Source of the DNA: Tetracentron sinense
Lineage: Eukaryota; Streptophyta; Magnoliopsida; Trochodendrales; Trochodendraceae
Reading direction: 5' to 3'
DNA length: 64,000 bases
Assembly: GCA_015143295.1 (NCBI GenBank)
Contig: CM026570.1
Span: 29,084,445 to 29,148,444 of the forward strand
Numbering within the stretch: position 1 is the stretch's first letter; each line of letters starts with the position of its first letter. Made by a program: the position numbers and the translations under genes. Below, piece after piece: positions 928-64,000 of the stretch. The notes under the pieces are model-generated. The model was not told where the DNA came from. It made no database searches and was given only the letters and a program-made list of their open reading frames with translations.

Positions 928-1052
928 TCAATAATAGTCTAGATGGGGCCTCCTATCTAGAGCTCCAACATCCTAGTGATGATCCATGGCAGGCTCTGGC
1001 TCGTAGTACTCCTCTTCTATCCAAGGCTTAGGAGCATGTTCATCCACAGAAC
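928..1052 (-). pseudogene. LTR micro-ORF, acidic peptide (L1 copy, one premature stop)
   Basis: From the acceptor-like TAG|GT at 1053 the minus strand reads SVDEHAPKPWIEEEYYEPEP and on to an ending with LDRRPHLDYY and TGA at 928-930. An in-frame TAG at 973-975 breaks it. The PWIEEEY core and the LD..P..DYY end match the other LTR copies. From AG to the final stop it is 125 nt, exactly as in the copy at 6681-6805. The function is unknown. Confidence 0.6.
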
Positions 1053-6239: not shown

Positions 6240-7064
6240 AAAGATACAAACGAGGAGGTCGGTCATGCAAATGCTAATGGACTCATACCCTTGTATGGTA
6301 AGGCATTAGTAGAGCTCCCATAAAAGCAATGTTCTGTTCTGAAAAGGAATGCTCGGATGCTAGTATGCGACGGACTATGATACGACAACTAGGCATGCCC
6401 CAATTCCAATTTTGTTCTGTTCTGAACGAGAAAAGTTCTGAAACAAGTATAAAAGATATGAAAAGAAGAAATGAAAGAACAAGTTTTAAATGATATGTAA
6501 AGACGTATTTGTTCTGTACAGTATGCACATGTATTGAAAAGAAGGTTTCCACTTTTGTTCAGCTTTTGCATGTGTATCTGATGTAACTATTATTGAAAGC
6601 ATGTGTTATTATGATATTGTTCTCTAGTGGTGTGTATACGCTGAGTATTCCATGTTCAGCCGAATTTTCATCTTCGGTAGGTCATGTGGATGTTCAAGCT
6701 CCAGCACCCTGGATAGAGGAGGAGTACTATGATCCAGAGCCTTTCACGGATCATCTACCGGAGGATAGCATACTGGATAGGTGGCTCTATTCAGATTATT
6801 GGTGAGAGTGATGAGGGAGAGAACATTTATAGTTTCAAAGTCAGGATGTCCACTTTACACTTATATGTTTTGTAAATGTTATGATGGACGGGACTTAGAA
6901 AATAGATGGCTTTATGTTTAAGAAATTTTATGCTTCTGCTATCATGTGCCTTGTGTATTTCATAGGATGGTATGTAAGCCTTATGTGTCATTACAGTATA
7001 GTATGACACGGCGGTCCCGAGCTAAAGTATCCCTAACTCCTAGGGGGTATTTTGGGTTTCGATA
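6240..7064 (+). mobile_element. Tekay LTR fragment, 3' half (L2), plus strand
   Basis: The right end reads CTCCTAGGGGGTATTTTGGG then TTTCGATA, the conserved Tekay LTR terminus with a degenerate final CA. It holds the hairpin at 6640-6660 and the micro-ORF at 6681-6805, so it is the 3' half of an LTR. The U3 half is absent and the left boundary is uncertain. It abuts, in opposite orientation, the U3 half of another LTR at 7065. Confidence 0.65.
6681..6805 (+). CDS. LTR micro-ORF, acidic peptide (L2 copy)
   Basis: Downstream of the acceptor-like CGGTAG|GT this copy encodes PAPWIEEEYYDPEPFTDH and ends ..LDRWLYSDYW with TGA at 6803-6805. It is 125 nt from AG to stop. The frame stays open upstream to an ATG at 6593, but the upstream frame relative to the hairpin ATG differs from that of the other subfamilies. 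The peptide is acidic and of unknown function. Confidence 0.5.
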
Positions 7065-11497: not shown

Positions 11498-11656
11498 TCA
11501 ACAGTAGTCGAGGTAAGGCCATACGTCCAAATCTCTATCCTCCTGAGACTGCAGCGGGAGAGGTGGCTCCCTCTCCTCTACGTACTCTTCCCCGACCCAA
11601 GGCTCAGGGTCAAGGACATCCACAGAACCTGCCGATATAAAAGTACGGCTGAACAT
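11498..11656 (-). CDS. LTR micro-ORF, acidic peptide (L4 copy, 52 aa)
   Basis: An ATG in the loop of the conserved hairpin (11656) starts MFSRTFISAGSVDVLDPEPW and the frame continues through a V-G-E-E-Y version of the core to an end at LDVWPYLDYC, TGA 11498-11500. The portion after the acceptor-like AG (11629) is 131 nt, as in the copies at 47805 and 52679. It is acidic, without a signal peptide or membrane segment. The function is unknown. Confidence 0.55.
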   Translation of the reverse strand: MFSRTFISAGSVDVLDPEPWVGEEYVEEREPPLPLQSQEDRDLDVWPYLDYC

Positions 11657-15585: not shown

Positions 15586-15708
15586 CTAATAATAGCCCTC
15601 TACATGAGGCTCCTCAGTAGGGACCTCCTCGATGTACTCCTCCTCAACCCATGGGACAGGAGCACAAATGTCAAAAGGAGCAGCCACTCCACTAACACAT
15701 GTCGACAT
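15586..15708 (-). CDS. LTR micro-ORF, acidic peptide (L5 copy, 40 aa)
   Basis: The start ATG TCG at 15708 corresponds to an internal Met of the longer copies. It encodes MSTCVSGVAAPFDICAPVPW followed by V-E-E-E-Y and more acidic residues, ending EGYY, TAG 15586-15588. The length difference from the other copies (18 or 33 nt) is a multiple of three. The acceptor-like CAG is replaced here. Confidence 0.45.
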   Translation of the reverse strand: MSTCVSGVAAPFDICAPVPWVEEEYIEEVPTEEPHVEGYY

Positions 15709-16120: not shown

Positions 16121-16275
16121 AACAACTTGAAGGGAGGGTGGTATAAACCTCCCTCTTTTGAGAAACATAGACTATAGCAACTTGAAAGGGAGGGAAGTGT
16201 AAACCCCCTCTTTTGATAAATATGCAATAAAGCAACTTGAAGGGAGGAGAGTGTAAACCCTCCTCTTTTGTGAAA
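16121..16275 (-). repeat. Tandem hairpin repeats in LTR L5
   Basis: Three units each hold GGGAGG, a spacer of about ten bases and CCTCCC-like complement, separated by CTTTTG..CAACTTGAA. The sequence is unlike the arrays of other subfamilies, but the position and the GGAGG/CCTCC hairpin design are the same. Confidence 0.65.
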
Positions 16276-21293: not shown

Positions 21294-21794
21294 TGTAACG
21301 ACCCCAAATCCTACCTTGACCAAAATAGGACCTTGGATTGCCACATTTCTTAAAACCTGCTTAAATCCCATAACATCCAAGGCATACTACATGAGTCTCC
21401 AAAAATGAGAGTAATAAAATTCAATTTAAACCAAATCATCTTGTACAAGTTTAGGGTCAACATAAACATAACTCACTAAGATCAAAGTACTCCAACAACT
21501 TATAAAACTCTGATGCAACATCAAAACTATAACTGAAACCAAAGTACCATAAGTCTATTTCATCCCTTAAAAATTGGCACAAACACCTACTAATAAGGAA
21601 AGCTATCTAGATCTCTAGCTCTCTCGGAGAAAAGGTCGCCTCCCTCGTCAACACCGTAGGTCTCCTCAACCCAAGGCTCAAACACCGACTCCGGCTCCAC
21701 ACCTGCCAAGACAACAGTCTAGCTGAGTACAAAAGCACTTTGTGTATATAAATCCAACCAACAACATAGTATACCTGCAATTAGTTAGAACCAC
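21294..21794 (-). mobile_element. Diverged Tekay-like LTR, 3' end fragment (L6)
   Basis: On the plus strand it starts TGTAACGACCCC, the reverse of the LTR end, and includes an acceptor-like TTGGCAG|GT at 21703 and a micro-ORF. The sequence is only distantly like the other Tekay LTRs. The opposite end is missing. Confidence 0.6.
21590..21702 (-). CDS. LTR micro-ORF, acidic peptide (diverged L6 copy)
   Basis: After the acceptor-like AG the frame reads VEPESVFEPWVEETYGVDEG and ends RDLDSFPY, TAG 21590-21592. It is 113 nt from AG to stop, 12 or 18 nt shorter than other subfamilies. A TAG lies in frame upstream of the AG, so an ATG at the hairpin cannot serve this copy. Confidence 0.45.
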
Positions 21795-23936: not shown

Positions 23937-24148
23937 TGTAGCACCCCGGACTTTTTCATCGTTAATGAATAGCACCTTCATAGCTAATTGGCCATTTTTG
24001 TAGTCTAATTAATAAATAAGGGATAAATCGGAAATTCCGAAATGTCAGAAATGTTTGTTTTCGAAAGACGGATCCAATGCAAGTTGAATCGTCGAAATCC
24101 GACGAGCGAGTCAAAAGATATGGTCAAAATAGTCCAGACATACGGAGC

Positions 24149-24336
24149 ACCGATCGCTCGGTCCAGTCAGCGATCAATCGGTCCATAACCGATCGATCGG
24201 TAGCTATCGCACGGTCAAAAATTTTGTATGGGGAAATTTTCTAGAGAGTGAGTTTTTGACCGGTCGATCGGTCATAAACACCGATCGCTCGGTAGGCAAC
24301 CGATCGATCGGTCATAACCACCGATCGCTCGGTCTT
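24149..24336 (+). repeat. Palindrome array ACCGATCG(A/C)TCGGT in LTR1
   Basis: Three copies of ACCGATCGCTCGGT, two of the perfect palindrome ACCGATCGATCGGT and several variants occur within 190 bp, upstream of the presumed promoter. Equivalent arrays are in LTR2 (31645-31830) and LTR3 (37450-37637). Confidence 0.85.
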
Positions 24337-24667
24337 CGGGTTTTTGCAGAAATTTCAGTAAGGGCGTTTTCGTCTCTTGGGTGTTAAACCCTTACCCATA
24401 AGGGTTTGCTCGACCCTTTGAGCCCTCATTCACAACCCTTAGACATTTTGAGAGCTAGAGAGTGAGAAGAAGAGGGTTTTGACCTAGGGTTTCCATTGAG
24501 GAAGAAATCAAAGGGGTAGACCATCCTAGGTCATCCTCAAACTTGGATTTGCTTCAAGTTCAAGGCTTGGATTCTCCAAATCCAACCTCAAGCTCATGTG
24601 GAGTACCTCTTCCAAGCTAGGGCAGCGTTTCTACATCATCCTCAAGGATTTTCTTTCCCTTTTCAAG

Positions 24668-25869
24668 GTTAGTACACTCTTCCGAGTTACTTTGGTAATA
24701 ACCTAGGATTTTTCTAAGAAAATATGTGTTGGATCTTCCCCATTGCTCCCTTGTGTTGGTATATGCTAAATCCCTAAAACATAAACAAGATAATACAAAC
24801 AAATGGTGGAATGTATGAATGGATGAGGAGTGGAGGCGATTGGATGCCATGTTGTGATGTGTTGAATGATGGGAAAAATGGTGGAAGGGCATATTACGCA
24901 TAATGAACACACCCCAAGTGTTTGATGAAATGTTCAAATGAGAAAATATGAAATAACTAAAGGTAAAAAGGTTGAATACCACATGTTTGATAGAATGTAT
25001 GAATAAACTAAGATTTGAAAGCATGAGTCACATAAATGTTCCCCATTTGGCAAGTTGTATGCATGTGTTTATTTCGCTTCTTAAATTCTCATGTGAGTTG
25101 GGAATTGTTAAAATGCTATATGTCAGCATGATTTCACGATTGCTATGCACGAGCACATATGTAGATGGAGGATATTGTCAAGGAGGTTGGTAGCCCAGGA
25201 TTATGCGGGTGCTAACCTCTGGCTCATAAGAAACGTATTGCATTGTCAAGGGGGTTGGTAGCCCAGGGATCATGCGGGTGCTAACCCCTGGCTCATAAGA
25301 AAGGACTCGAAAACGTTGCACTGTCAAGGAGGTTGGTAGCCCCGGTTAAGGGTGCTAACCTCTGGCTCATAAGAAAGGAAATGGTATTGTCAAGGAGGTT
25401 GGTAGCCCCGGTTAAGGGAGCTAACCTCTGGCTCATAAGTAAGGTATCGTACTGTCAAGGAGGCTGGTAGCCCAGGGATGTGCGGGTGCTAGCCTCTGGC
25501 TCATAAGAAGTGTATTGTACTGTCAAGGGGGTTGGTAGCCCAGGGATGTGCGGGTGCTAACCCCTGGCTCATAAGAAAGGTATTGTACTGTCAAGGAGGT
25601 TGGTAGCCCAGGGATATGCGGGTGCTAACCTCTGGCTCATAAGAAATATTGAAAGGACAACTCAAAGAGGAATTGTATGATGCATGGACATGTTTTAGTT
25701 TCATAATAATTATGACTTGATAAAATGTTTATGTATGAGGTTGCTAGAAATGATTATGAACTATACTCCTCCCATTGCTTGTATATGATGTTGTTCGTTA
25801 TTACCATTGTTAGTTAGGGGCTTGTACTCGCTGAGTATTCCATGCTCAGCCGTACTTTCATGTCGGCAG
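24668..25869 (+). other. Putative LTR leader intron (LTR1)
   Basis: The donor-like TTTCAAG|GTTAGTACAC is at 24668 and the acceptor-like TTTCATGTCGGCAG|GT ends at 25869, a span of 1202 bp. The same donor recurs at 37979, 51594 (plus) and at 56607, 49039 and 12781 (minus). In LTR3 the acceptor CAG is changed to CAA. Confidence 0.45.
25174..25646 (+). repeat. 67-bp tandem hairpin array in LTR1 (7 units)
   Basis: Each unit carries GAGGTTGGTAGCC...GGGTGCTAACCTC followed by TGGCTCATAAG and a spacer. The outer stem exists in three versions that stay paired: GAGGTT/AACCTC, GGGGTT/AACCCC and GAGGCT/AGCCTC. Inner pairs AGC/GCT and CC/GG add to the stem. Unit starts are near 25176, 25244, 25322, 25389, 25453, 25521 and 25589. 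Confidence 0.9.
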
Positions 25870-26015
25870 GTACCCGAGTCCCTCTCGACATTTGTGATCC
25901 GGGTCCTTGGATAGAGGAGGACTATGGCGAGGAGGAACCTTATGAGGATCTAGTAGTCGAGCCTCAGGCGGAGGCGAGAGACTTAGACCATTGGCCCCAC
26001 GGGGGTGACTATTGA
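25842..26015 (+). CDS. LTR micro-ORF, acidic 57-aa peptide (LTR1 copy)
   Basis: An ATG in the loop of the GCTGAG-N9-CTCAGC hairpin opens MLSRTFMSAGTRVPLD and the frame passes DPGPWIEEDYGEEEPYEDL to end RDLDHWPHGGDY, TGA 26013-26015. The part after the acceptor-like AG is 146 nt, identical in length to the LTR3 and element E copies. Differences from other subfamilies are multiples of three. The peptide is strongly acidic with no membrane segment. It would act either as a leader ORF ahead of gag or as a small exon product. Its function is unknown. Confidence 0.6.
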   Translation: MLSRTFMSAGTRVPLDICDPGPWIEEDYGEEEPYEDLVVEPQAEARDLDHWPHGGDY

Positions 26016-26302
26016 GCGAGACAGAGTTGTATTTTGTCTTTTGTATTTTGTTAGGTGGGCCTGTCCACCTTAGGCTTAGACGTGTTGTACATATGTTAAA
26101 CTTGGAATACTGTTTTGGAACTTTAGAAGAAAAAAAAAGAGTTGGTTGCGCTTCCGCATTTTATGTTTAGCTTCCGCGCTCTGATTATCATTGTATTAGT
26201 ATTATATTTTGCCTTGTTCATTACAGGATGGTTTGGCAGGTTTGTATAGTCCATCTAAAGTATCCCTAAACTCCTAGGGGGTATTTTGGGGCGTGACAGA
26301 GG

Positions 26303-26315
26303 TGGTATCAAAGCC
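26303..26315 (+). promoter_or_regulatory. Primer binding site, initiator tRNA-Met
   Basis: TGGTATCAAAGCC starts four bases after the LTR end. It matches the usual plant initiator-Met primer site TGGTATCAGAGC except for one A in place of G. Confidence 0.85.
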
Positions 26316-26610
26316 TAGGCGTTAGAGTCCTTAGGGTCACTAGAACTGATACTATGATTGAACAAGGTCTTAGACCATTAAGAGGAGTCGTATTCCAAGT
26401 ATAGACTAATAACTTAGTCTTAGTCCATAACCGGTTGGAAAGCCAAACCGCACTTAGTAACCTACGTTAGAACACGAACGTATGCTTGTTGTTGCTGTGT
26501 ACACCTTGAATGAATTGTCATATGCTCAATAAATGATAGGGATGCTAAAATTGTTATTAAATATTGTGCAATTATTGAATTGTTGCTAAACACGTATCCA
26601 AGTTAGACTC

Positions 26611-27877
26611 ATGTGGTACTGTCGTTCTCAGGATCACATCATGAGACGCGGTGCTCGGGGTCGCGGATACAATACGAGGGGAAATGAAAGTGATGCCCCT
26701 TCCGGTGACGAGCAACCCGATTTTGCCCAAGCTTTTGCATCTATAGCCGAGACTTTGGCTATGTTAGCAGCAAGGCCGGTTGCTGTTACTCCTTCTACAC
26801 CTCCGCCACCTCCGGCACACCATGCTTCAGGATTGGAGGCATTTAGGAGATTACGTCCTCCTACTTTTTTTGGTACTACTGACCCCATGGTCGCCGAGGC
26901 ATGGGTGATGCAATTGGAAAAGATTTTTAAAGCGCTCCACTGCATGGATGAACAGAGAGTGGACTGGGCCACCTTCGTGATGGAAGGTGCGGCCGAGCAT
27001 TGGTGGAGAGCCGCACAGAGACAGAGGGAGTCCACCAGGGCGGGGGAGCCGTGGACATGGCCGGAATTTTTGGATGTCTTCTATAAGCAGTATTTTCCAG
27101 TAGCTGTCAAAGAACAGAAGGAGATTGAATTCATGACTCTTGAACAAGGAGAGTTGAGTGTGGCCGATTATGAGGCTACCTTCGTGGAGTTATCGAGATT
27201 CGCACCTCACCTAATTGCATCAGAGCATATGCGAGTCAGGAAATTTGAGCGGGGATTGAAACCCTCCATTAGAGACAGGGTCTCGATGTTCCAGGTGGCT
27301 ACCTGGGGAGAGGTTGTGAGCAATGCGAAGCTTGCCGAGAAGAATTCGGAAGAATTCTTCAAGAGAAGGGATATGACTCGAGGCCAGTCGAGTAGTTCGG
27401 GGTCGGCAGAGAAGAGGGTTAGGACAGCCCCATATCAGGCATCCAGGCTGATACGGTCACAGAGGCCTCCCTTGACATCACAGACATCTCGGCCTACCAC
27501 TACACCAGTACCTCGTCCCACATTTTCGCAGGCCACCCGATATGTTCCACTTGCATCCTCATTAGAATTTGAGGAGTGCTCCTATTGTGGCCGGAGACAC
27601 AGGATTGGCGAATGTCGGAGGATTTCAGGTGGGTGCTTTCACTGTGGGGTTGTGAATCACATGGTCAGGGATTGCCCTCGCAGGCAGCTACAGCCTATCC
27701 AGCCCCAGGGGAGTAGGCCACCAGTTTGACAGGATTCCCAGCCGGGATCCTCACAGGCTTCTGCGTCTAGGTCTGCACGACCCACACCGTCCACTCCACC
27801 GCCTCGTAGGGCAACCCAGGGTTAGGTTTTTGCCTTATCGGAACGGGATGCACGTGCATCTGACGATGTCGTGCAAG
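26611..27877 (+). pseudogene. gag: Tekay gag, composite copy 1
   Basis: The frame opens at ATG 26611, with a second ATG at 26641 that better suits the basic start MRRGARGRGYNTRG. It encodes the retrotransposon Gag domain (WVMQLEKIF..., W..AAQRQRE, F...Y.P...K..K..EF..L.QG..SV..Y) over residues 90-240. A serine- and proline-rich linker follows, and a CCHC knuckle [14 protein letters not shown] at about residue 345. TGA at 27727-27729 replaces an Arg codon and TAG at 27823-27825 a Gln codon, judged against element E. The exon-like region ends at the donor CAAG|GTACGC. Gag would package the RNA in cytoplasmic particles, but this copy is broken. Confidence 0.9.
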
Positions 27878-28013
27878 GTACGCTATCATGCTAAAGTTTC
27901 AAGTTGTAATTGGCTGTTATTATGTAATGTGATTGCTTATATGTATGACATGCTACCTATACTTATGTGTTATTGCGTGAAATCTATTAACGTGAATTTA
28001 ATTAATCACACAG
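27878..28013 (+). other. Putative gag-pro intron (copy 1, 136 bp)
   Basis: GTACGC opens and AATCACACAG closes the segment. Without it the frame reads [15 protein letters not shown] and goes straight into the protease. With it, Gag ends six codons later at TAA. The 136 bp are not a multiple of three, so Pol depends on removal. The same segment is in copy 2, element E and, diverged, element A. Confidence 0.7.
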
Positions 28014-31000
28014 GCGCGTTATTAGTGAATGAATGCCTAGCCCGAGTGTTGATCGACACAGGATCCACTCATTCCTTTGTATCGCCTAGCTTTGCGAAAG
28101 GATTTCCAACCAAGTCCAGTCAGTTGAAGCATGAATTAACCATCTCCACACCGCTCGGCAAGTCAGTGGACACGGACCGTATATACAGGGACTGTGTAGT
28201 CCAAGTGGGACAGAATGAGTTGTTAGCCGACCTCATCATCCTGGACTTCCAAGACTTAGATTTCGATGTCATACTTGGTATGGATTGGCTATCGGCTCAC
28301 CATGGACATGTGGCATGTTTCGAGAAGATGGTGAACTTTGAGCCGATGGGAGTTAAGCCATTTCACTTTCGAGGGTTGAGGGAAAGAGACATTGCTCGCC
28401 TCGCAGCTTTGAGCTTAGCAAACCCAGAAGCACAAACTCCTCGGTCATTCCGGTCGTGAGTGAGTTCTTGGATGTATTTCCGGAGGAACTTCCCGGATTG
28501 CCTCTGGATCGGGAGATTGAGTTCGCTATAGAGCTTACTCCAGGCACCGCTCCGATTTCAAGGGCACCATATAGAATGGCCCCAATAGAGCTTGAGGAAT
28601 TAAAGAAGCAAATTGAGGAGTTACAACAACTTGGTTTCATCCAACCAAGTGTGTCACCATGGGGAGCTCCGGTCCTCTTTGTGAAAAAGAAAGACGGGTC
28701 AATGAGAATGTGCATAGATTACCGGCAGTTGAACAAGATAACTATTAAGAATCGTTATCCTTTGCCTCGGATAGACGACTTGTTTGACCAACTGAAGGGA
28801 GCAAGATTTTTCTCCAAGATTGATCTTAGATCGGGGTATCATCAGTTAAAGATCAAGGCGGCAGATGTTCCGAAGTCGGCTTTCAGGACTCGGTATGGGC
28901 ACTACGAGTTCCTTGTCATGCCTTTTGGGCTGACGAATGCACCGGCGGCGTTCATGGATTTGATGAACCGGGTGTTCTGATCGTACTTGGATCGATGTGT
29001 GATTGTGTTCATAGATGATATTTTAGTGTATTCCCAGACACGGGAAGATCACGCACGAGACCTTCGTCTTGCTCTGGAGATATTGAGAGAGCATAGGCTA
29101 TACGCTAAGTTAAGCAAGTGTGAATTTTGGTTGGAGAAGGTGGCGTTCCTAGGCTACGTAGTGTCGGCCGAGGGTATTTCTGTTGACCCGGCAAAGATAG
29201 AGGCAGTTATGATATGGGAGAGACCCAAGAGAGTCACGGAGATACGTAGTTTTCTCGGGTTGGCAGGCTATTATCGGAGATTCGTGGAGGGATTCTCCAG
29301 TTTGGCTGCACCTCTCACTTACCTGACGAGAAAGATTGCTAAGTTTAGTTGGAGCGACAGATGCGAAGCGAGCTTCCAAGAGTTGAAGAAACGCCTCACC
29401 ACGGCCCCCGTCCTTACTGTGCCATCCGGGAGTGGTGGTTTTGTGGTTTACAGTGACGCCTTGCATGTGGGGTTGGGATGTGTACTTATGCAGCACGGCA
29501 AAGTCATTGCTTACGCCTCCAGGCAATTGAAAGAGCATGAGAAGAATTATCCCACTCACTATTTAGAGCTCGCCGCGGTTGTGTTTGCCTTGAAGATTTG
29601 GCGACATTATCTCTATGGGGAACAGTTCGACGTATTTACGGACCATAAAAGCTTGAAGTACCTGTTCTACCAAAAGGAATTGAATTTAAGGCAGAGGAGA
29701 TGGGTAGAGTTTTTGAAAGACTACGAATGTTCCATTCAATATCATCCGGGCAAGGCGAACGTTGTAGCCGATGCTCTTAGCCGGAAGCCCACTGGACTTT
29801 TTGCGCACATGATGCTGAGGGAATGGAGGTTGTTAGAAGATGCATCCAACCTCGACATCAGTTTTAGTCTCCCTACTTTTGGGCCAGTAATGGCTAACAT
29901 CACAGTTAGACCATATATCCTAAGCATGACCAGGGAGTTGCAGGGAATGGATGTCGAGCTACTGTCTTACCGAGACCAGTCAGTTAAAAGTGGCAGCAAG
30001 GATTTTGCGGTGAGGGATGATGGAATTATCACTTTCAAGGGAAGAGTATGTGTCCCAGCCGATGAGAAGCTTAAGTGAGAAATCTTGTACGAGGCTCACC
30101 GGTCCATGTACACCGTTCACCCCGGGGGTACCAAGATGTATAGGGACTTGAAGAAGCACTTTTGGTGGTGGAACATGAAGTGAGAAATAGCTGGGTACGT
30201 GTCCCGATGCTTGGTGTGCCAACAAGTCAAGGCCGAGCACAGGAGACCGGCGGGTCTGTTGCAGTCTCTCCCTATTCCCGAGTGGAAATGGGAACATATC
30301 TCTATGGACTTCATCGTGGGGTTGCCAAAGACAGTTAAAAAGACTGATGCGATATGGGTTGTGGTTGACAGACTCACGAAGTCCGCCCATTTCTTACCGT
30401 ACCGGACTACATTCAACTCAAATTAGTTAGCTGCCTTGTACATCAAAGAGATAGTCCGATTGCACGGAGTGCCAGTGAGCATTGTCTCAGACCGGGATCC
30501 AAGGTTCACATCCAGGTTTTGGAGAAGCTTTCAGGATGCCATGGGTTCCAGACTAGACTTTAGCACGGCCTTCCATCCACAGACGGATGGGCAAACCGAG
30601 CGAGTGAATCAGATTATTGAAGACATGCTCCGTGCATGTATGCTAGACTTCAAGGGAAGTTGGGAGGATCACCTACCTTTGGTGGAATTCACCTACAACA
30701 ATAGTTACCAGGCAAGCATACAGATGGCACCCTTTGAGGCTTTGTACGGAAGAAGTTGTAGATCTCCGTTGTATTGGGATGAAGTGGGAGAAAGAAAATT
30801 TTGGGCCCCGAGTTGATTGAACAAACTGCAGATAGAGTCAAGCTCATCCGGGAAAGGTTGAAGACCGCACAAGACCGACAGAAAAGCTATGCCGACAACC
30901 GAAGGAGGGATCTTGAATATCGAGTTGGTGACTTTTTTTTTGTCAAGATTTCACCAACCAAGGGGGTTATGAGATTCGGGAAAAGAGGCAAGCTTAGCCC

Positions 31001-31342
31001 GAGATATGTGGGTCCATTCGAGATCATTACTCGAGTTGGTGAGGTAGCTTACCGAGTTGCCTTGCCCGCTCACATGGCGGCGATCCACAATGTATTTCAC
31101 ATCTCCATGCTTCGGAAGTATATCCCGGATCCTTCTCATGTCATCGAGCTTGATCTGATAGAGATCCGAGAGGACCTCACCCTAGTTGAACAACCGGTGT
31201 AGATCTTGGATGGGCGAGATCAAGTCTTGCGCAACAAGACCATTCCCTTGGTCTTGGTAAGATGGCAACACCATTGAAGGGAGGAAGCTAGTTGGGAACG
31301 AGAAGCCGAATTATGTGAAAAGTACCCCCATTTATTTGTTTA
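28014..31342 (+). pseudogene. pol: Tekay pol, composite copy 1 (PR-RT-RH-INT-chromodomain)
   Basis: The order is protease with DTGSTHSFV (near 28060), RT with [12 protein letters not shown] and FIDDILVYS, RNase H with [11 protein letters not shown], the integrase zinc region (H..H, CLVCQQVK), the DDE core (SMDFIVGLP, VSDRDPRF, HPQTDGQTERVNQ), GPFEII and the chromodomain-like tail. Stops lie at 28978-28980, 30076-30078, 30181-30183, 30424-30426, 31200-31202 and 31275-31277. One-base deletions near 28434 and 30797 shift the frame relative to copy 2. The first four stops are shared with copy 2. It is inactive. Confidence 0.93.
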
Positions 31343-31421
31343 AGGCCTTGACATTCCCTTGTATTTTGTTATAGTTTTACGCATGTATGTATCGTCCAAA
31401 TTTCGGGGACGAAATTTTTGT

Positions 31422-31434
31422 AAGGGGGGGAGAA
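31422..31434 (+). promoter_or_regulatory. Polypurine tract, copy 1
   Basis: AAGGGGGGGAGAA precedes the LTR start TGTAG at 31435 without a gap. Confidence 0.85.
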
Positions 31435-32675
31435 TGTAGCACCCCGGACTTTTTCATCCTTAATGAATAGCACCTTCGTAGCTAATTGGCCGTTTTTATA
31501 GTCTAATTAATAAATAAGGGATAAATCAGAAATTCTGAAATATCAGAAATGTTCGTTTTCGAAAGACGGATCCAACGCAAGTTGAATCGTCGAAATCCGA
31601 CGAGCGAGTCAAAGATATGGTCAAAATAGTCCAGACATACAGAGCACCGATCGCTCGGTCCAGTCAGCGATCGATCTGTCCATAACCGATCGATCGGTAG
31701 CTATCGCACGGTCAGAAATTTTGTATGGGGAAATTTTTCAGAGAGTGAGTTTTTGACCCGTCGATCGGTCATAAACACCGATCGCTCGGTAGGCAACCGA
31801 TCCGATCGGTCATAACCACCGATCGCTCGGTCTTCGGGTTTTTGCAGAAATTTCAGTAAGGGCGTTTTCATCTTTTGGGTGTTAAACCCTTACCCATAAG
31901 GGTTTGCTCGACCCTTTGAGCCCCCATTCACAACCCTTAGACATTTTGAGAGCTAGAGAGTGAGAAGAAGAGGGTTTTGACCTAGGGTTTCCATTGAGGA
32001 AGAAATCAAAGGGGTAGACCATCCTAGGTCATCCTCCAAACTTGGATTTGCTTCAAGTTCAAGGCTTGGATTCTCCAAATCCAACCTCAAGCTCGGTGTG
32101 GAGTACCTCTTCAAGCTAGGGCAGCGTTTCTACATCATCCTCAAGGATTTTCTTTCCCTTTTCAAGGTTAGTCAGACACTCTGCCTAGTTAACTGTGGTA
32201 ATAACCTGAGTTTCTAAGAAAATATGTGTTGGATTATTACGTCCCATTGTCCCTGGTGTTGGTATATGCTAATACCTAAAAACATAAACCGATACTCAAA
32301 CAAATGGAGAATGTATGAAGATGAGGAAGTGGAGGCGATTGGATGCAATCGTTGTGATGTGTTGAATGATGGGAAAATGGGGAAGGGCATAATTACGCAA
32401 TGAACACACCCAAGTGTTTGATGAAATGGTCAAATGAGAAAATATGAAAGATAACTAAAGGTGAAAAAGGTTGAATAACCACATGTTGACTGAGAATGTA
32501 TGAATAACTAAGATTTGAAAGCATGAGTCACATAAATGTTCCCCATTTTCGGCAAGTTTATGTAGTGTGATTTCGCTTCTTAAATTCTCATGTGAAGTGG
32601 GAATTGTTATAAACTGCGATAGGTCATTTCCCAATGATTTCACGATGGCTATGCACGGCACATTAGGAGGATGTC
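31435..32675 (+). mobile_element. Partial LTR2 of composite F
   Basis: It matches LTR3 closely for about 650 bp, then becomes full of one- to few-base indels from about 32090. It ends at about 32675, where sequence changes to mid-gag with only one or two bases of overlap. The missing part is the hairpin array, micro-ORF, LTR end, primer site and the first 260 bp of gag. No other copy shows such indel density. Confidence 0.85.
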
Positions 32676-33678: not shown

Positions 33679-33814
33679 GTACGCTATCATGCTAAAGTTT
33701 CAAGTTGTAATTGGCTGTTATTATGTAATGTGATTGCTTATATGTATGACATGCTACCTATACTTATGTGTTATTGCGTGAAATCTATTAACGTGAATTT
33801 AATTAATCACACAG
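33679..33814 (+). other. Putative gag-pro intron (copy 2, 136 bp)
   Basis: It has the same ends, length and frame effect as the segment at 27878-28013. Confidence 0.7.
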
Positions 33815-37146: not shown

Positions 37147-37224
37147 GGCCTTGACATTCCCTTGTATTTTGTTATAGTTTTACGCATGTATGTATCGTCC
37201 AAATTTCGGGGACGAAATTTTTGT

Positions 37225-37237
37225 AAGGGGGGGAGAA
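37225..37237 (+). promoter_or_regulatory. Polypurine tract, copy 2
   Basis: AAGGGGGGGAGAA directly precedes LTR3. Confidence 0.85.
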
Positions 37238-39535
37238 TGTAGCACCCCGGACTTTTTCATCCTTAATGAATAGCACCTTCGTAGCTAATTGGCCGTTTTT
37301 ATAGTCTAATTAATAAATAAGGGATAAATCAGAAATTCTGAAATATCAGAAATGTTCGTTTTCGAAAGACGGATCCAACGCAAGTTGAATCGTCGAAATC
37401 CGACGAGCGAGTCAAAAGATATGGTCAAAATAGTCCAGACATACAGAGCACCGATCGCTCGGTCCAGTCAGCGATCGATCTGTCCATAACCGATCGATCG
37501 GTAGCTATCGCACGGTCAGAAATTTTGTATGGGGAAATTTTTCAGAGAGTGAGTTTTTGACCCGTCGATCGGTCATAAACACCGATCGCTCGGTAGGCAA
37601 CCGATCGATCGGTCATAACCACCGATCGCTCGGTCTTCGGGTTTTTGCAGAAATTTCAGTAAGGGCGTTTTCATCTTTTGGGTGTTAAACCCTTACCCAT
37701 AAGGGTTTGCTCGACCCTTTGAGCCCCCATTCACAACCCTTAGACATTTTGAGAGCTAGAGAGTGAGAAGAAGAGGGTTTTGACCTAGGGTTTCCATTGA
37801 GGAAGAAATCAAAGGGGTAGACCATCCTAGGTCATCCTCAAACTTGGATTTGCTTCAAGTTCAAGGCTTGGATTCTCCAAATCCAACCTCAAGCTCGTGT
37901 GGAGTACCTCTTCCAAGCTAGGGCAGCGTTTCTACATCATCCTCAAGGATTTTCTTTCCCTTTTCAAGGTTAGTACACTCTTCCTAGTTACTTTGGTAAT
38001 AACCTAGGATTTTTCTAAGAAAATATGTGTTGGATCTTCCCCATTGCTCCCTTGTGTTGGTATATGCTAAATCCCTAAAACATAAACAAGATAATACAAA
38101 CAAATGGTAGAATGTATGAATGGATGAGGAGTGGAGGCGATTGGATGCCATGTTGTGATGTGTTGAATGATGGGAAAAATGGTGGAAGGGCATATTACGC
38201 ATAATGAACACACCCCAAGTGTTTGATGAAATGTTCAAATGAGAAAATATGAAATAACTAAAGGTAAAAAGGTTGAATACCACATGTTTGATAGAATGTA
38301 TGAATAAACTAAGATTTGAAAGCATGAGTCACATAAATGTTCCCCATTTGGCAAGTTGTATGTATGTGTTTATTTCGCTTCTTAAATTCTCATGTGAGTT
38401 GGGAATTGTTAAAATGCTATATGTCATCATGATTTCACGATTGCTATGCACGAGCACATATGTAGATGGAGGATATTGTCAAGGAGGTTGGTAGCCCAGG
38501 ATTATGCGGGTGCTCACCTCTGGCTCATAAGAAACGTATTGCATTGTCAAGGGGGTTGGTAGCCCAGGGATCATGCGGGTGCTCACCCCTAGCTCATAAG
38601 AAAGGACTCGGAAATGTTGCACTGTCAAGGAGGTTGGTAGCCCCGGTTAAGGGTGCTAACCTCTGGCTCATAAGTAAGGTATCGTACTGTCAAGGAGGCT
38701 GGTAGCCCAGGGATGTGCGGGTGCTAGCCTCTGGCTCATAAGAAGTGTATTGTACTGTCAAGGGGGTTGGTAGCCCAGGGATGTGCGGGTGCTAACCCCT
38801 GGCTCATAAGAAAGGTATTGTACTGTCAAGGAGGTTGGTAGCCCAGGGATATGCGGGTGCTAACCTCTGGCTCATAAGAAATATTGAAAGGACAACTCAA
38901 AGAGGAATTGTATGATGCATGGACATGTTTTAGTTTCATAATAATTATGACTTGATAAAATGTTTATGTATGAGGTTGCTAGAAATGATTATGAACTATA
39001 CTCCTCCCATTGCTTGTATATGATGTTGTTCGTTATTACCATTGTTAGTTAGGGGCTTGTACTCGCTGAGTATTCCATGCTCAGCCGTACTTTCATGTTG
39101 GCAAGTACCCGAGTCCCTCTCGACATTTGTGATCCGGGTCCTTGGATAGAGGAGGACTATGGCGAGGAGGAACCTTATGAGGATCTAGTAGTCGAGCCTC
39201 AGGCGGAGGCGAGAGACTTAGACCATTGGCCCCACGGGGGTGACTATTGAGCGAGACAGAGTTGTATTTTGTCTTTTGTATTTTGTTAGGTGGGCATGTC
39301 CACCTTAGGCTTAGATGTGTTGTACATATGTTAAACTTGGAATACTGTTTTGGAACTTTAGAAGAAAAAAAAAGAGTTGGTTGCGCTTCCGCATTTTTAT
39401 GTTTAGCTTCCGCGCTCTGATTATCATTGTATTAGTATTATATTTTTGCCTTGTTCATTACAGGATGGTTTGGCAGGTTTGTATAGTCCACCTAAAGTAT
39501 CCCTAGACTCCTAGGGGGTATTTTGGGGCGTGACA
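37238..39535 (+). mobile_element. LTR3 of composite F (3' LTR)
   Basis: TGTAGCACCCCGG to GGGGCGTGACA, 2298 bp. It is colinear with LTR1 but has six hairpin units (38470-38882) instead of seven and scattered substitutions. The palindrome array is at 37450-37637 and the donor-like site at 37979. The TSD follows. Confidence 0.95.
39077..39250 (+). CDS. LTR micro-ORF (LTR3 copy, 57 aa)
   Basis: Same frame and length as the LTR1 copy. Two changes (Ser to Leu, Gly to Ser) fall where the acceptor-like site CGGCAG became TGGCAA. The PWIEEDY core and the end are unchanged. Confidence 0.55.
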   Translation: MLSRTFMLASTRVPLDICDPGPWIEEDYGEEEPYEDLVVEPQAEARDLDHWPHGGDY

Positions 39536-39540
39536 GTATG

Positions 39541-47514: not shown

Positions 47515-49845
47515 TGTCGCGCCCCAAAATACCCCCTAGGAGTTTAGGGATACTTTAGGCGTGAATGAATGTGCCTGCCAAACCATCCTGTTATGAACAA
47601 GATAATTACAGTACTAAACAATGATAATCAGAGTGCGGAAACTAAACATAAATGCGGAAGCCTAAACTAACTTTTTCTTTTCTTCTAAGATTTCCAAAAT
47701 AGTATTCCAAGTTAACATATATACAAAACATGTCTAAGTCTAAGGTGGACAAACCCACCTATCAAAATGTCAAAATACATAAAAGACCCTCTCGTACTCT
47801 CCCCTCAACAGTAGTCGAGGTATGGCCACACGTCAAGGTCTCGGTCCGCCTGAGACTGCAGTGGGATAGACGGCTCTCTCTCCTCGATATACTCTTCCTC
47901 GACCCAAGGCTCTGGGTCGAGGGTTCCCTCAGTACCTGCCGACATGAAAGTACGGCTGAGCATGGAATACTCAGCGAGTACAAGCTACTAGCCATCCATA
48001 ACAATAATAAACATGCAAAGAGTAGTACAATACCAATCATCAATTCCAGGCAATAGTAAAATCATAGAATTAAACAATATTAATCATGGAGAAATATTAT
48101 CATCTTGATGAGCATGAATGCAAAAACGCCGACAAAACTCATGCTTGAAAACCCGTTTCCATGTCCCGGTATGCATTTTAAAACCATGTATGCGTGCATG
48201 CATGAATGTCTTGTCATCATCTTGTAACCTTGTATCTTGTAACTTGTGAGCTAGAGGCTAGCACCCGAATCTCCCTGGGCTGCCAACCTCCTTGATATGT
48301 ATGGTTTTCTTGTGAGCCAGAGGCTAGTACCCGAATGTCCCTGGGCTACCAACCTCCTTGACAATATGTGTTTTAGGGGTTTTCTTGTGAGTCAGAGGCT
48401 AGTACCCGAATGTCCCTGGGTTACCAACCTCCTTGACATGCAATATTTTCTTGTTGGTTATTATATGCACATGCTCTTGAAATCTCGGTTCATGCTATCA
48501 TGTGTGCTCTTGTACGTGTCAATCGTGACAACCATGGAATAAGGATAGTAAGAGAGGTATGACATTACCATTCAATTCACAATATATGCATATGAGAATT
48601 TGAGTAATCAACATGGTATTTAAATCCATTCATCATTCATGAGAATACATGTATAAGGCCTATTTCTCTTTTTCTTCCTTTAAATCATTATTTCATAGTT
48701 TAGGCATTTTGTCAAACACACCACATGCAATGTTCCTCCATAGTTCATCTTCTTATTTCTAGTGCATATTTTCCATCCAATAATCAAAGTGAGTTCATTA
48801 TTGGTAAAATGCCCATCCTCCATTTTTTCATTACACAAACCACACATACCACACATCATACATTCGGCATCCCATCGCCTCAATCAATCTCCCATCCACA
48901 CATCCATATCCTTTTTCCTTTTCTTGTTTATAATTATTAGAATGATACATTTTACAAGGAAGGAAACCTACTAACATGAATCACATTTCACATAAAAAGC
49001 CTAGATTATCGCTAGGGAAAGTTAGTAGGGTGTACTAACCTTAGATCAAGGCTTGATCTTGGTAGGAACCTTGATTGAAGCTCCAAAAAGGGTAGGGAAC
49101 AACCCTTGCTTGAGGAAGACTTGAGTTGGGGAAGAACCCCTTTCTAAAAAAACATGTGTGGGTGCTGCCCTAGCTTGGAGGAGGAGTCCCACAAGAGCTT
49201 GAGCCTTGAAATCGAAGCCAAACGAGCTGGGGGATCTAGGGTTCTTAAACCCCCTTTGATTCCTCCTCCAAAACGAAACCCTAGGTTAGAGTCTCCTTCT
49301 CCTCTCTCCCTAACTCTCAAATATCCCTAAGTGTAGTGAATGAGGGCTCAAAGGGTCGAGCAAGCCCTTATGGGTAAGGGTTTAACGCCCAAAAGATGAA
49401 AAAGCCCTTACTGAAATTTCTGCAAAAACGCGAAGACCGAGCGATCGGTGGTTATGACCGATCGATCGGTTGCCTACCGAGCGATCGGTTGCCTACCGAA
49501 CGATCGGTACTCTGACCGAGCGACCGGTCAAAAAACTACTCTCTGGAAAATTTTCCCATACAAAAGTTTTGACCGTGCGATAGCTACCGATCGATCGGTT
49601 TTGGACCGATCGATCGCTGACTGGACTGAGCGATCGGTGCTCTGCATGTCTGGACTGTTTTGACCATATCTTTTGACTCGCTCGTCCGATTTCGAAGATT
49701 CAACTTGCGTTGGGTTCGTCTTTCAAAAATGAACATTTTTGACATTTCGAAATTTCCGATTTCTCCCTTATTTATTAACTACGAGGAAGACCAATTAGGC
49801 ACGAAAGTGCTATTCATTAAATATAGAAAAGTTCAGGATGCTACA
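47515..49845 (-). mobile_element. Solo Tekay LTR (L7) with perfect TSD
   Basis: 2331 bp. The flanks are ATTGA (47510-47514) and ATTGA (49846-49850). In element sense it has ACCGATCG-type palindromes (about 49635-49435), a donor-like site (49039), three hairpin units (48440-48245), the ATG hairpin (47975-47955), an acceptor-like site (47936) and the micro-ORF. It splits the copia reverse transcriptase. Confidence 0.95.
47805..47963 (-). CDS. LTR micro-ORF, acidic peptide (L7 copy, 52 aa)
   Basis: From the hairpin ATG it reads MLSRTFMSAGTEGTLDPEPW, then V-E-E-E-Y-I-E-E, and ends RDLDVWPYLDYC, TGA 47805-47807. It is 131 nt from AG to stop. No stop interrupts it. Confidence 0.6.
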   Translation of the reverse strand: MLSRTFMSAGTEGTLDPEPWVEEEYIEEREPSIPLQSQADRDLDVWPYLDYC

Positions 49846-50386: not shown

Positions 50387-53101
50387 TGTAGAACCCCGGA
50401 AATTCAAGTTCACTATATTATGAATAGTGCCAGTGAAAGGTGCCCTTGTATGGTATGTGTGAAGGCCTAAGGCCTCCCATTGTGTTCTTGATATTATGAT
50501 TAGTCAATTGAGGGTTTTAGGTACATGGTTTGAGTCGTAAAAAGAGAGTGTAAAGATACTCTAAGTAAGTGAAATCAAGGGTACAAATACCCTAAGTGTT
50601 TCAATGGGTTGTTGGTGAATAGTGCTAGTGCATGAGGCATAGAGAGGCCGGAGCCTCTCATGCATGTCGGTGTGAATTTAATGATCATTGAGGTGGGTTA
50701 AATACTTATGGAGAATAATTTATGAGGTGTGAGTAGGGTGTTGTACACAAGGGGAAAAGAATGTGAAAACACTCGACGTATTCTAGGTGTCGAAAAGGTA
50801 TGTTTCGGCAATTACCTCAACTTTAAAGGGCTCTATTTTAGTCATCTTTGCTCAGAATTGAGTGATTAATGAATTTTTGGAAAGGTATTAGAACCCTCTT
50901 CAAGGTTCATGTTGATCACTTTCCTGATTTTGAGTCGGGGTTGAGTCAAAAGTGGGATATCCAAAATCGGGTCGGCTGCAAATTTGGGCTGTCGCAACCC
51001 ATTGCAGACCAGTCAGCTTTAGGGGAATTTTTGTCCATGAATAAAAAAGAATTAGAATTTTTTTCAAAGCATGAAAGTTGTTTCTCTTCGAAAGACGAAT
51101 CTAACGCAAGTTGAATCGTCAAAATCGGAGCAACGAGTCAAACGTGATGGCCAAAATACTGAAGTGCGTTCTGAAGCACCAGTCAAGACCGAGAGATCGG
51201 TCCACTACCGGTAGATCGGTCATAAGCACCGATCAATCGGTCCACTACCGGTAGATCAGTCATCTATCGGTCCTACGCGATTTTCAGAAATTGTTTTAGG
51301 GGTTTTTTGGTCTTTTGGCCACTCCACCCTTATTTTTAAGGGTTGGCTCGAGCCAAGGGTGTTCATAAACACCCTTAGCTATATTTTGAGAGGGAGTGAG
51401 AGAGGAGAGAAGGGGTTTTCACACTAGGGCATCAACTTGAGAGAATTAAGGGGTTTTGGAACCCATGACCATCTCAAAAGCTTGGATCTCTCAAATCCAA
51501 CCTCAAGCACGTGTGGAGTCCCATTCCAAGCTAGGGAAGCGTTCTCCACAGCGTTTTTCAAGGGTTTTCTTCTCTTCTTCAAGGTTAGTACACCCTACTA
51601 ACTTTCCCTAGCGATAATCTAGGCTTTTTATGTGAAATGTGATTCATGTTAGTAGGTTTCCTTCCTTGTAAAATGTATCATTCTAATAATTATAAACAAG
51701 AAAAGGAAAAAGGATATGGATGTGTGGATGGGAGATTGATTGAGGCGATGGGATGCCGAATGTATGATGTGTGGTATGTGTGGTTTGTGTAATGGAAAAA
51801 TGGATGATGGGCATTTTACCAATAATGAACTCACTTTGATTATTGGATGGAAAATATGCACTAAAAATAAGAAGATGAACTATGGAGGAACATTGCATGT
51901 GATGTGTTTGACAAAATGCCTAAACTATGAAAAAATGATTTGAAGGAAGAAAAAGGGAAATAGGCCTTATACATGTATTCTCATGAATGATGAATGGATT
52001 TAAATACCATGTTGATTACTCAAATTCTCATATGCATATATTGTGAATTGAATGGTGATGTCATACCTCTCTTATTATCCTTATTCCATGATTGTCATGA
52101 TGGACACGTACACGAGCACGTATGATAGCATGAACCAAGATTTCAAGAGCATATGCATATAATAACCAACAAGAAAATATTGCATCTCAAGGAGGTTGGT
52201 AGCCCAGGGACATTCGGGTACTAGCCTTTGGCTCACAAGAAAACCCCTAAAACACATATTGTCAAGGAGGTTGGTAGCCCAGGGACATTCGGGTACTAGC
52301 CTCTGGCTCACAAGAAAACCATACATATCAAGGAGGTTGGCAGCCTAGGGAGATTCGGGTGCTAGCCTCTGGCTCACAAGTTACAAGATGCAAGGTTACA
52401 AGATGATGACAAGACATTCATGCATGCACGCATACATGATTTTTACAATGCATACCGAGACATGGAAACGGGTTTTCAAGCATGAGTTTTATCAGAGTTT
52501 TCGCATTCATGCACGCATGTTGTGATGATTGTATTGTACCATGCCTCCTACTATTTCTCTTGCGATGCTATTACTGCCGTGTACTGTATTCCTGTTGTGG
52601 TGCATATTATTGTTATGGTTAGCTAGCAGCTTGCACTCGCTGAGTATTCCATGCTCAGCCGTACTTTCATGTCGGCAGGTACCGAGGGAGCCCTCGACCC
52701 GGAGCCTTGGGTCGAGGAAGAGTATATAGAGGAGAGAGAGCCGTCTATCCCACTGCAGTCTTAGGCGGACCAAGACCTCGATGTGTGGCCGTACCTCGAC
52801 TATTATTGAGGGGAGAGTACGAAAGGGTTATATGTGGTTTGACATTTTGATAGGTGGGCCTGTCCACCTTAGACTTAGACATGCTTTGTATATATATATG
52901 TTAACTTGGAATATTCTTTTGGAAACCTTAGAAGAAAAGAAAAAGTTAGTTTACGCTTCCACATTTATGTTTAGCTTCCGTGCTCTGATTATCATTGTTT
53001 AGTACTGTAATTATCTTGTTCATAACAGGATGGTTTGGCAGGTACGTTTAGTCATGCCTAAAGTATCCCTAAACTCCTAGGGGGTATTTTGGGGCGTTAC
53101 A
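50387..53101 (+). mobile_element. Solo Tekay LTR (L8) with perfect TSD
   Basis: 2715 bp from TGTAGAACCCCGG to GGGGCGTTACA. The flanks are GGGAT (50382-50386) and GGGAT (53102-53106). The U3 start resembles the L1/element E type while the 3' half resembles L7, so it is mosaic. It has a donor-like site (51594), hairpin units (52190-52385), a micro-ORF and ACCGGTAGATCGGT-type repeats (51187-51265). Confidence 0.95.
52651..52809 (+). pseudogene. LTR micro-ORF (L8 copy, premature TAG)
   Basis: From the hairpin ATG it reads MLSRTFMSAGTEGALDPEPW and on through V-E-E-E-Y to TAG 52762-52764. That is one C to T change from the CAG of the L7 copy. The original end DYY, TGA 52807-52809, is still in frame. 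Confidence 0.55.
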
Positions 53102-55121: not shown

Positions 55122-55295
55122 TCAATAGTCACCCCCGTGGGGCCAATGGTCTAAGTCTCTCGCCTCCGCCTAAGGCTCGACTACTAGATCCTCATAAGGT
55201 TCCTCCTCGCCATAGTCCTCCTCTATCCAAGGACCCGGATCACAAATGTCGGGAGGGACTCGGGTACCTGCCGACATGAAAGTACGGCTGAGCAT
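55122..55295 (-). pseudogene. LTR micro-ORF (element E 3' LTR, premature TAG)
   Basis: Same frame as the copy at 63171-62998, but a CAG to TAG change at 55172-55170 stops it after the core PWIEEDY. The original end is at 55122-55124. Confidence 0.55.
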
Positions 55296-62714: not shown

Positions 62715-64000
62715 TGTCATGCCCCAAAATACCCCCTAGGAGTTTAGGGATACTTTAGGTGGACTATACAAACCTGCCAAACCATCCTGTAATGAACAAG
62801 GCAAAATATAATACTAATACAATGATAATCAGAGCGCGGAAGCTAAACATAAAATGCGGAAGCGCAACCAACTCTTTTTTTTTTTTCTAAAGTTCCAAAA
62901 CAGTATTCCAAGTTTAACATATGTACACCACGTCTAAGCCTAAGGTGGACAGGCCCACCTAACAAAATACAAAAGATAAAATACAACTCTGTCTCGCTCA
63001 ATAGTCACCCCCGTGGGGCCAATGGTCTAAGTCTCTCGCCTCCGCCTGAGGCTCGACTACTAGATCCGCATAAGGTTCCTCCTCGCCATAGTCATCCTCT
63101 ATCCAAGGACCCGGATCACAAATGTCAAGAGGGACTCGGGTACCTGCCGACATGAAAGTACGGCTGAGCATGGAATACTCAGCGAGTACAAGCCCCTAAC
63201 TAACAATGGTAATAACGAACAACATCATATACAAGTAATGGGAGGAGTATAGTTCATAATCATTTCTAGCAACCTCATACATAAACATTTTATCAAGTCA
63301 TAATTATTATGAAACTAAAACATGTCTATGCATCATACAATTCCTCTTTGAGTTGTCCTTTCAGTATTTCTTATGAGCCAGAGGTTAGCACCCGCATATC
63401 CCTGGGCTACCAACCTCCTTGACAGTACAATACCTTTCTTATGAGCCAGGGGTTAGCACCCGCACATCCCTGGGCTACCAACCCCCTTGACAGTACAATA
63501 CACTTCTTATGAGCCAGAGGCTAGCACCCTCACATCCCTGGGCTACCAGCCTCCTTGACAGTACGATACCTTACTTATGAGCCAGAGGTTAGCACCCGCA
63601 CATCCCTGGGCTACCAACCCCCTTGACAGTACAATACCTTTCTTATGAGCCAGAGGTTAGCACCCGCATAATCCTGGGCTACTAACCTCCTTGACAATAC
63701 CATTTCCTTTCTTATGAGCCAGAGGTTAGCACCCTTAACCGGGGCTACCAACCTCCTTGACAGTACAACATTTCCGAGTCCTTTCTTATGAGCCAGGGGT
63801 TAGTACCCGCATGATCCCTGGGCTACCAACCCCCTTGACAATGCAATACGTTTCTTATGAGCCAGAGGCTAGCACCCGCATATTCCTGGGCTACTAACCT
63901 CCTTGACAATACCATTTCCTTTCTTATGAGCCAGAGGTTAGCACCATTAACCAGGGCTACCAACCTCCTTGACAATATTCTCCATCTACATATGTGCTCG
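62715..64000 (-). mobile_element. Element E 5' LTR, 3' half (cut by window end)
   Basis: It begins TGTCATGCCCC on the plus strand (reverse of the LTR end) and runs colinear with 54837-56100. It includes the micro-ORF, the hairpin (63163-63183) and nine hairpin units (63370-63985). The U3 half lies beyond the window. Confidence 0.92.
62998..63171 (-). CDS. LTR micro-ORF, acidic 57-aa peptide (element E 5' LTR)
   Basis: From the hairpin ATG at 63171 it reads MLSRTFMSAGTRVPLD, DPGPWIEDDYGEEEPYADL and ends RDLDHWPHGGDY, TGA 62998-63000. It is uninterrupted and lies in the LTR that would head the element RNA, upstream of gag. Confidence 0.6.
   Translation of the reverse strand: MLSRTFMSAGTRVPLDICDPGPWIEDDYGEEEPYADLVVEPQAEARDLDHWPHGGDY

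Follow-up and report, generated by a model that had tools for sequence, protein, structure and literature searches.

A short acidic coding segment, probably a spliced exon, in the long terminal repeats of a Tekay-like chromovirus of Tetracentron sinense

Main finding

Long terminal repeats (LTRs) of a Tekay-like chromovirus in the genome of T. sinense contain a segment of about 41 codons, one reading frame of which is, judging by its substitution pattern, almost certainly under selection at the protein level. The best reading, to which we assign a probability of roughly two in three, is that the segment is a coding exon supplying the C-terminus of a small accessory protein, which would be translated from a spliced RNA. 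The frame starts at a conserved acceptor-like site preceded by a conserved hairpin, and a donor-like site is situated upstream in the same LTR in most copies examined. Together these features suggest an undescribed accessory protein coded in the LTR of a plant retrotransposon.

The acidic segment and its host element

The window, that is, the whole analysed stretch of 64,000 nucleotides, had been described as carrying eleven LTR copies of a segment encoding a short acidic peptide. Translation recovers all eleven, four on the forward strand (6681, 25842, 39077, 52651) and seven on the reverse strand (928, 11498, 15586, 21590, 47805, 55122, 62998); the features are listed in Table 1, where copy A is that at 25842. 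Eight of the eleven are open as far as the usual end. The previously given lengths of 113, 125, 131 and 146 nt from the preceding AG to the stop are borne out when counted from the first base after YAG through the end of the stop: 125 nt in 6681, 131 nt in 11498 and 47805, 113 nt in 15586 and 21590, and 146 nt in 25842, 39077 and 62998. The AG is mutated in two copies, 39077 (GGCAA) and 15586 (GACAT), the lengths of which were measured from the place homologous to the lost AG. Three copies are broken, as had been noted, each by an early TAG at a position where relatives have glutamine, and are open for 80 nt (928), 86 nt (52651) and 98 nt (55122). Stops, TAG or other, replace glutamine of relatives in L030, L042 and L046 as well. 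The early stops fit deamination of methylated CAG (CHG) sites after insertion.

Table 1. Positions of the observed and predicted features in the window (a slash marks a splice-like junction)
Feature	Position	Strand	Basis
3'-splice-site-like acceptor of copy A, ...GTCGGCAG/GT	25858..25869	+	92-copy base counts
Putative coding exon (acidic) of copy A, 146 nt including TGA, split first codon	25870..26015	+	translation, dN/dS, period-3 scan
Acidic exon copy, 125 nt, intact	6681..6805	+	translation
Acidic exon copy, 146 nt, intact frame, mutated AG (now AA)	39105..39250	+	translation
Acidic exon copy, early TAG	52679..52764	+	translation
Acidic exon copy, early TAG (open 973-1052)	928..1052	-	translation
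Acidic exon copy, 131 nt, intact	11498..11628	-	translation
Acidic exon copy, 113 nt, intact frame, mutated AG (now AT)	15586..15698	-	translation
Acidic exon copy, 113 nt, intact; without upstream donor	21590..21702	-	translation
Acidic exon copy, 131 nt, intact	47805..47935	-	translation
Acidic exon copy, early TAG (open 55170-55267)	55122..55267	-	translation
Acidic exon copy, 146 nt, intact	62998..63143	-	translation
Stem-loop directly before acceptor, copy A	25824..25855	+	pairing and covariation analysis
LTR of copy A, starts TGTAGCACCCC, end approximate	23937..26298	+	sequence
Primer-binding-site-like TGGTATCAAAGCC	26303..26315	+	sequence
gag ORF from first in-frame ATG, PF03732, zinc knuckle	26611..27729	+	domain search
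68-bp tandem array within predicted intron	25316..25646	+	sequence
5'-splice-site-like donor AAG/GTTAGTACAC, GT at 24668	24665..24677	+	sequence match
Predicted intron within LTR, 1202 nt	24668..25869	+	inferred from donor and acceptor
Predicted non-coding leader exon 1	24415..24667	+	start guessed from TATA positions in other copies
Acceptor-like TTCTCAG/GA just before gag ATG at 26641	26625..26643	+	sequence match

Over 86 copies the mean peptide length is 41 residues, of which 11.4 are acidic and 2.6 basic. The peptides share the core PW(V/I)EE(E/D)Y and, in many families, an LDxWPY..Y end. The originally proposed PW(I/V)xEE core is recognised across the copies, with departures in single ones (PWVGEEY in 11498).

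The window elements encode Gag, RT-RNase H, integrase and a C-terminal chromodomain, the latter weak, as the Chromo matches (24.9 and 24.5 bits) fall just under the Pfam cut-off of 25.1. Given this set of domains, the assignment to the chromoviruses (Ty3/gypsy) is sound, the clade name Tekay being the label of the preliminary description. The stretch downstream of the LTR of copy A matching TGGTATCAAAGCC is presumably the primer-binding site (PBS). Rfam and tRNA scans of the window produced no matches.

Several further features of these elements were observed. Family-specific tandem arrays with units of about 48–69 bp are seen upstream of the hairpin, in the predicted intron, in several LTR families (25316-25646, 55491-56098, 63367-63974, 11991-12196, 48243-48454, 1321-1707, 16123-16277), several of them with AAGGAGGT-like cores on one strand. 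Palindromic CGATCGATCG-type repeats, with flanks differing between families, are situated near the 5' end of several LTRs (24149-24334, 37450-37635, 49435-49528, 7098-7333, 17269-17328, 56927-57070). A 510-codon ORF with PF20167 (putative plant transposon protein) occupies 40379-41911, and a second copy, 40% identical, is found at L009:1728-2858. The region 23937-39536 has the structure LTR-internal-LTR-internal-LTR, with near-identical internal parts spaced about 5.8 kb apart; the middle LTR (31435-32663) is truncated, and the arrangement may stem from unequal recombination.

Occurrence in the genome

The source genome comprises 1.16 Gb in 1479 contigs. A sample blind to the peptide, 20 random 10-kb stretches (200 kb) from parts of 13 contigs, yielded eight more acidic copies by DNA similarity to the eleven copies of the window. 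Protein searches of the genome, in which the best 150 of 32334, 19375, 30339 and 9171 first-look candidates were scored, produced overlapping lists with not all candidates real; 80 loci from two of these lists (60 and 20) were fetched and read, and the core is visible by eye in all 80, with stops in several. The eight copies from random sequence and the readable core in the 80 fetched ones place the acidic segment beyond chance. By rough extrapolation, the genome may contain tens of thousands of copies.

Selection on the frame

The dN/dS check suggested in the preliminary description was run on codon-blind pairwise nucleotide alignments, using disjoint pairs only, and the ratio is well below 1 in the acidic frame only. 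For 15 copies not found by protein search, of which nine are window copies, only partly unbiased because they had been chosen by their peptide, and six come from random loci, dN/dS in the acidic frame is 0.32 (0.22–0.45; 7 disjoint pairs), versus 0.88 (0.70–1.16) and 1.06 (0.70–1.90) in the other two frames of the same bases. The near-duplicates 39077, 62998, L009 and the second L010 copy were left out of this set. The contrast between frames supports the earlier suggestion of selection on a protein product inside the LTR. In the upstream flank, 105 nt ending 35 nt before the AG, the three frames yield 0.95, 0.89 and 0.90, and in the downstream flank, +120 to +225 after the AG, which still includes the last codons of the longest copies, 0.71, 0.68 and 1.49.

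Differences per codon at positions 1, 2 and 3 amount to 0.363, 0.394 and 0.581 (12 codon-aligned copies, 66 overlapping pairs). In the larger set of protein-picked copies (82 of 93 kept), where dN/dS is biased downward by the choice of copies by protein similarity and serves as support only, it equals 0.43 for recent pairs, and the deeper pairs yield 0.22, 0.21 and 0.14. Such a gradient would arise with active lineages under selection and dead copies in decay. Conservation is seen between families; single copies decay.

A sliding period-3 scan was applied to about 2.4 kb of the LTR in 13 family pairs. The acidic exon is the top window in five pairs (chi2 17.6, 15.5, 12.4, 7.0 and 3.7) and is among the top four in six more, always with third-position excess, and it is outside the top four in two pairs (25842-47805, 52651-25842). 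No other place in the LTR recurs consistently across the 13 pairs.

The acceptor-like site and the phase of the frame

The acidic frame is tied to a 3'-splice-site-like YAG/GT. The phase was assessed in 95 copies, two of which (L062, L095) gave no acceptor; in 92 of the other 93 the best acceptor match, selected without regard to phase, is in phase with the acidic frame, and in the single out-of-phase copy, L029, the AG is mutated. One copy, L060, was a spurious match and was dropped later; a later tally of 92 in-phase copies out of 92 is true by construction and hence provides no evidence.

In the 92 copies, position -3 is a pyrimidine in all 92, -2 is A in 90, -1 is G in 75, +1 is G in 89, and +2 is T in 91; the lower count at -1 is as expected for decaying copies. 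Positions -2 and +2 are codon third positions, fixed at the junction, while the next one, +5, varies (T in 39, A in 24, G in 23, C in 6). GCAG/GT agrees with the plant acceptor consensus.

The distance between the AG and the core falls into five length classes, 23, 26, 29, 35 and 44 nt, so that its changes are multiples of three and the indels keep the frame, as had been claimed. On the other side of the AG, the distance to the hairpin (18–23 nt) occurs in all three phases (57, 17 and 14 of 88 copies), that is, it is not triplet. Families differ in the frame in which the hairpin is read, the AG being the fixed point. Entry into the acidic frame by splicing at the YAG is likely.

The hairpin before the acceptor

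A nine-pair stem is located about 18–20 nt before the AG. In 25 copies picked for diversity from the 92, 93.3% of the cells are paired, changes on both sides are observed in 9 cells versus 2.6 expected, a count that none of 500 shuffles reached, and the covariation score exceeds that of all 500. Two other measures are weaker, double-change pairs (4 versus 2.2) and further pair types (12 versus 10.1), each reached by 56 of 500 shuffles. Slid versions of the stem pair in less than 40% of the cells. Single-sequence folding has z < -1.5 in 58 of the 92 copies. As the hairpin would lie in the branch-point region, occlusion of the acceptor is a natural guess.

The donor-like site and the leader

The donor-like site is situated about 0.9–1.4 kb upstream of the core. 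AAG/GTNRGT is present in nine of ten testable window copies, 62998 being untestable as its LTR is cut by the window end. Six have the exact AAG/GTTAGTACAC, 928 has AAG/GTAGGTACAC, 6681 has GATAAG/GTTAGT at two sites, and 15586 has the weaker AAG/GTCGGTAC; the site is weak (6.5 with a plant splice-site matrix) in 15586 and in L010a/L025. No donor was found upstream in the window copy 21590. Twelve further loci were inspected by eye: seven have a donor-like site (six AAG/GTNRNNAC and one GAG/GTAAATAC), in L111, L115 and L120 none was found, and in L110 and L119 the donor position, judged by TATA, falls outside the stretch.

TATA-like boxes are seen about 200–335 nt before the donor in 928, 11498, 55122 and L013, and also in L109, L112, L114 and L116; such boxes occur elsewhere too, and copy A has only a weak one. 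Five of 13 copies have no ATG in the 300 nt before the donor, and ATGs in the phase of the acidic frame precede it only in 928, where stops follow, and in L013, where the ATG lies before the predicted start. A coding exon 1 was rejected on account of non-triplet indels, the lack of a shared ATG and stops in the needed phase. In particular, exon 1 ends with TAAG, creating a stop in the needed phase at the junction, in 928, 6681, 47805, L009 and L017b, and hence cannot supply the start codon in several families.

Another acceptor-like site is located just before the gag start in five of six gag copies (A, H, L009, L010 and L017, not L014); in the window it is found at 62366-62388 in addition to the site in Table 1. 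The combination of the leader donor with this site predicts a spliced gag mRNA, to which the acidic exon would offer an alternative acceptor. Such splicing from the LTR donor would take out the PBS along with the greater part of the leader.

Search for an upstream coding exon

While both the acceptor and the donor are conserved, an upstream coding exon was not found. A scan of gag and pol for shared donors yielded none in phase 1 that satisfied the conservation test, and donors at the end of pol are not conserved between the two copies compared. A candidate micro-exon with an ATG near the LTR 3' end (CAG/GATGG) was rejected by eye, as its possible donors leave phase 0, not 1. The LTR 5' end, with the best conserved DNA, does not look coding (two copies, by eye). 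No spliced copy was found in the 357 kb searched, the sole match being an unspliced site. All-frame blastp of LTR translations was uninformative, as DNA similarity generates matches in every frame. In several families a CAG/GATGGTTTG-like motif is seen near the LTR 3' end, e.g. at about 26220-26240, being acceptor-like and followed by a donor-like GT.

Proposed model and alternatives

We propose the following order of events. The short coding exon would be situated in the transcribed part of the LTR, begin at the conserved 3' splice site in phase 1, with its first codon completed across the junction, and run for about 41 acidic residues to a stop of its own. The LTR transcript would consist of an ATG-poor leader exon ending at a 5' splice site, followed by two competing 3' splice sites, the one just before the gag start leading to a spliced Gag-Pol mRNA and the one before the acidic exon to an accessory mRNA. 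The hairpin probably limits the use of the latter, and unspliced RNA would remain the genome. This full accessory-gene model, spliced Gag mRNA included, is tentative and somewhat less likely than not. As to function, the acidic, aromatic tail would most likely serve as a disordered motif that binds a host protein, an assignment that we consider speculative and on balance doubtful.

The main alternative is a free-standing micro-ORF translated, from unspliced RNA or from RNA with a second start site in the LTR, beginning at an ATG 10 nt before the AG. Such an in-frame ATG is present in 51 of 92 copies, 8 copies of the set of 15 found without protein search have it, copy A is open from its ATG at 25842, and BARE, as described in an excerpt of PMC3735527, has two TATA boxes with different transcript fates. 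However, types without this ATG are equally constrained, with dN/dS of 0.28 (0.19–0.43; 22 copies, 10 pairs) and, in a second set, 0.32 (0.19–0.54; 13 copies, 6 pairs). Among 35 copies lacking it, nine have an in-frame ATG 28–121 nt upstream, and in the other 26 no such ATG occurs up to a stop or the limit of the sequence examined. Since families without a close in-frame ATG are under the same constraint, an exon is a better reading of the segment than a complete ORF. The variable frame of the hairpin, with the AG as the fixed point, also argues against translation through it, and about 1 kb with many ATGs separates the predicted leader start from the ATG at -10. We consider this alternative improbable; of the term micro-ORF used previously, protein-coding selection stands and independence is less likely, as the segment looks like an exon. 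A fusion is less probable still. The phase-1 donor-like GAAG/GTG at +346/+352 of gag in copies A, H, L009 and L010 could be joined to the acidic exon in the 3' LTR, producing a truncated Gag with an acidic tail, but this site is absent in L014 and L017, the copies of two of the six families, and overlaps Gag codons (E-G) that are conserved anyway.

Two explanations dispense with a protein from the segment. The GAG/GAA runs just downstream of the acceptor might form an exonic splicing enhancer rich in purines (GAGGAGGA), placed after a leader acceptor and merely resembling an acidic peptide; this is very unlikely in view of the third-position excess, the frame-specific dN/dS, the conserved P, W and Y codons and the triplet length classes. 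Shared ancestry alone, with recently amplified copies decaying neutrally, agrees with the abundance of near-identical copies (100% identity in 20 of 40 scored matches) and with the many copies that have lost the AG or acquired stops, but between families pS is 0.46 versus pN of 0.20, and the other frames and the flanks lack such contrast, making this explanation hardly credible. We retain the C-terminal exon of a spliced accessory mRNA as the preferred reading.

Relatives of the peptide

Among 5.8 billion proteins one relative was found (1 of 31 candidates), P0001, of 47 residues, encoded in a 753-base contig (E 8.7e-7). Its best matches in the T. sinense genome are only 38–68% identical, and hence it comes from elsewhere. 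Further searches of the same 5.8 billion proteins gave no other relative, and a protein of 78–247 residues with the P0001 tail was not found among them. Searches of Pfam with five peptides and of PDB with profile A1 returned no matches up to E 10, and none of five pattern matches in IMG/VR was confirmed. Searches of open-licence literature, judged by titles and the beginnings of abstracts and with subscription papers mostly outside their reach, brought up no report of an LTR-coded peptide in plants.

Comparison with known systems

Plant retrotransposon LTRs are generally regarded as non-coding. In animal retroviruses, the sag gene of MMTV and the lentiviral nef have all or part of their coding sequence in the LTR and are expressed from spliced RNA. 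Similarly, the acidic segment is a coding sequence in an LTR under protein-level selection. The likeness drawn here is one of arrangement. Sag and nef encode larger proteins and are coded in U3, whereas the acidic exon lies downstream of the predicted transcription start. If the proposed model is true, a retroelement lineage that is among the most common in seed plants has a nef/sag-like accessory gene with a hairpin-guarded acceptor, reached by regulated alternative splicing from the leader exon, and an expression programme in the style of complex retroviruses, overlooked because of its location in the LTR. A protein exon under purifying selection, present in very many copies, would give an abundant lineage an additional, undescribed life-cycle protein and explain a part of the leader.

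Extra ORFs of plant LTR retrotransposons are described, in an excerpt of Vicient and Casacuberta 2020 (PMC7264820), as internal to the element, in most cases downstream of pol and ahead of the 3' LTR. The acidic segment resembles them in being conserved coding sequence beyond gag-pol in many copies, with function unknown in both cases, and Bagy2 among them makes a spliced RNA (PMC7264820). It differs in lying in the LTR, having about 41 codons and starting at an acceptor-like site; it is not a complete internal-region ORF with its own start, since it is in the LTR and no start codon is common to all families.

In sunflower, Tekay is reported to have an additional ORF with a transposase domain (PMC11728184). 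It is likewise an extra conserved protein, and the PF20167 ORF of the window at 40379-41911 is reminiscent of it; the acidic exon is another protein at another place. The minimum ORF length in that survey was 300 (PMC11728184), and thus an exon of 41 codons would not be seen. A protein exon in the LTR would mean that surveys of internal-region ORFs miss genes.

Finally, splicing itself is known in plant elements: excerpts of PMC3735527 and PMC12786077 report that BARE, EVADE and Ogre produce spliced subgenomic mRNAs beside the genomic RNA, the protease portion being removed in EVADE and a Gag-only RNA made by BARE. Compared with BARE and EVADE (PMC3735527, PMC12786077), the element studied here is distinguished by the predicted location of both the donor and the intron inside the LTR.
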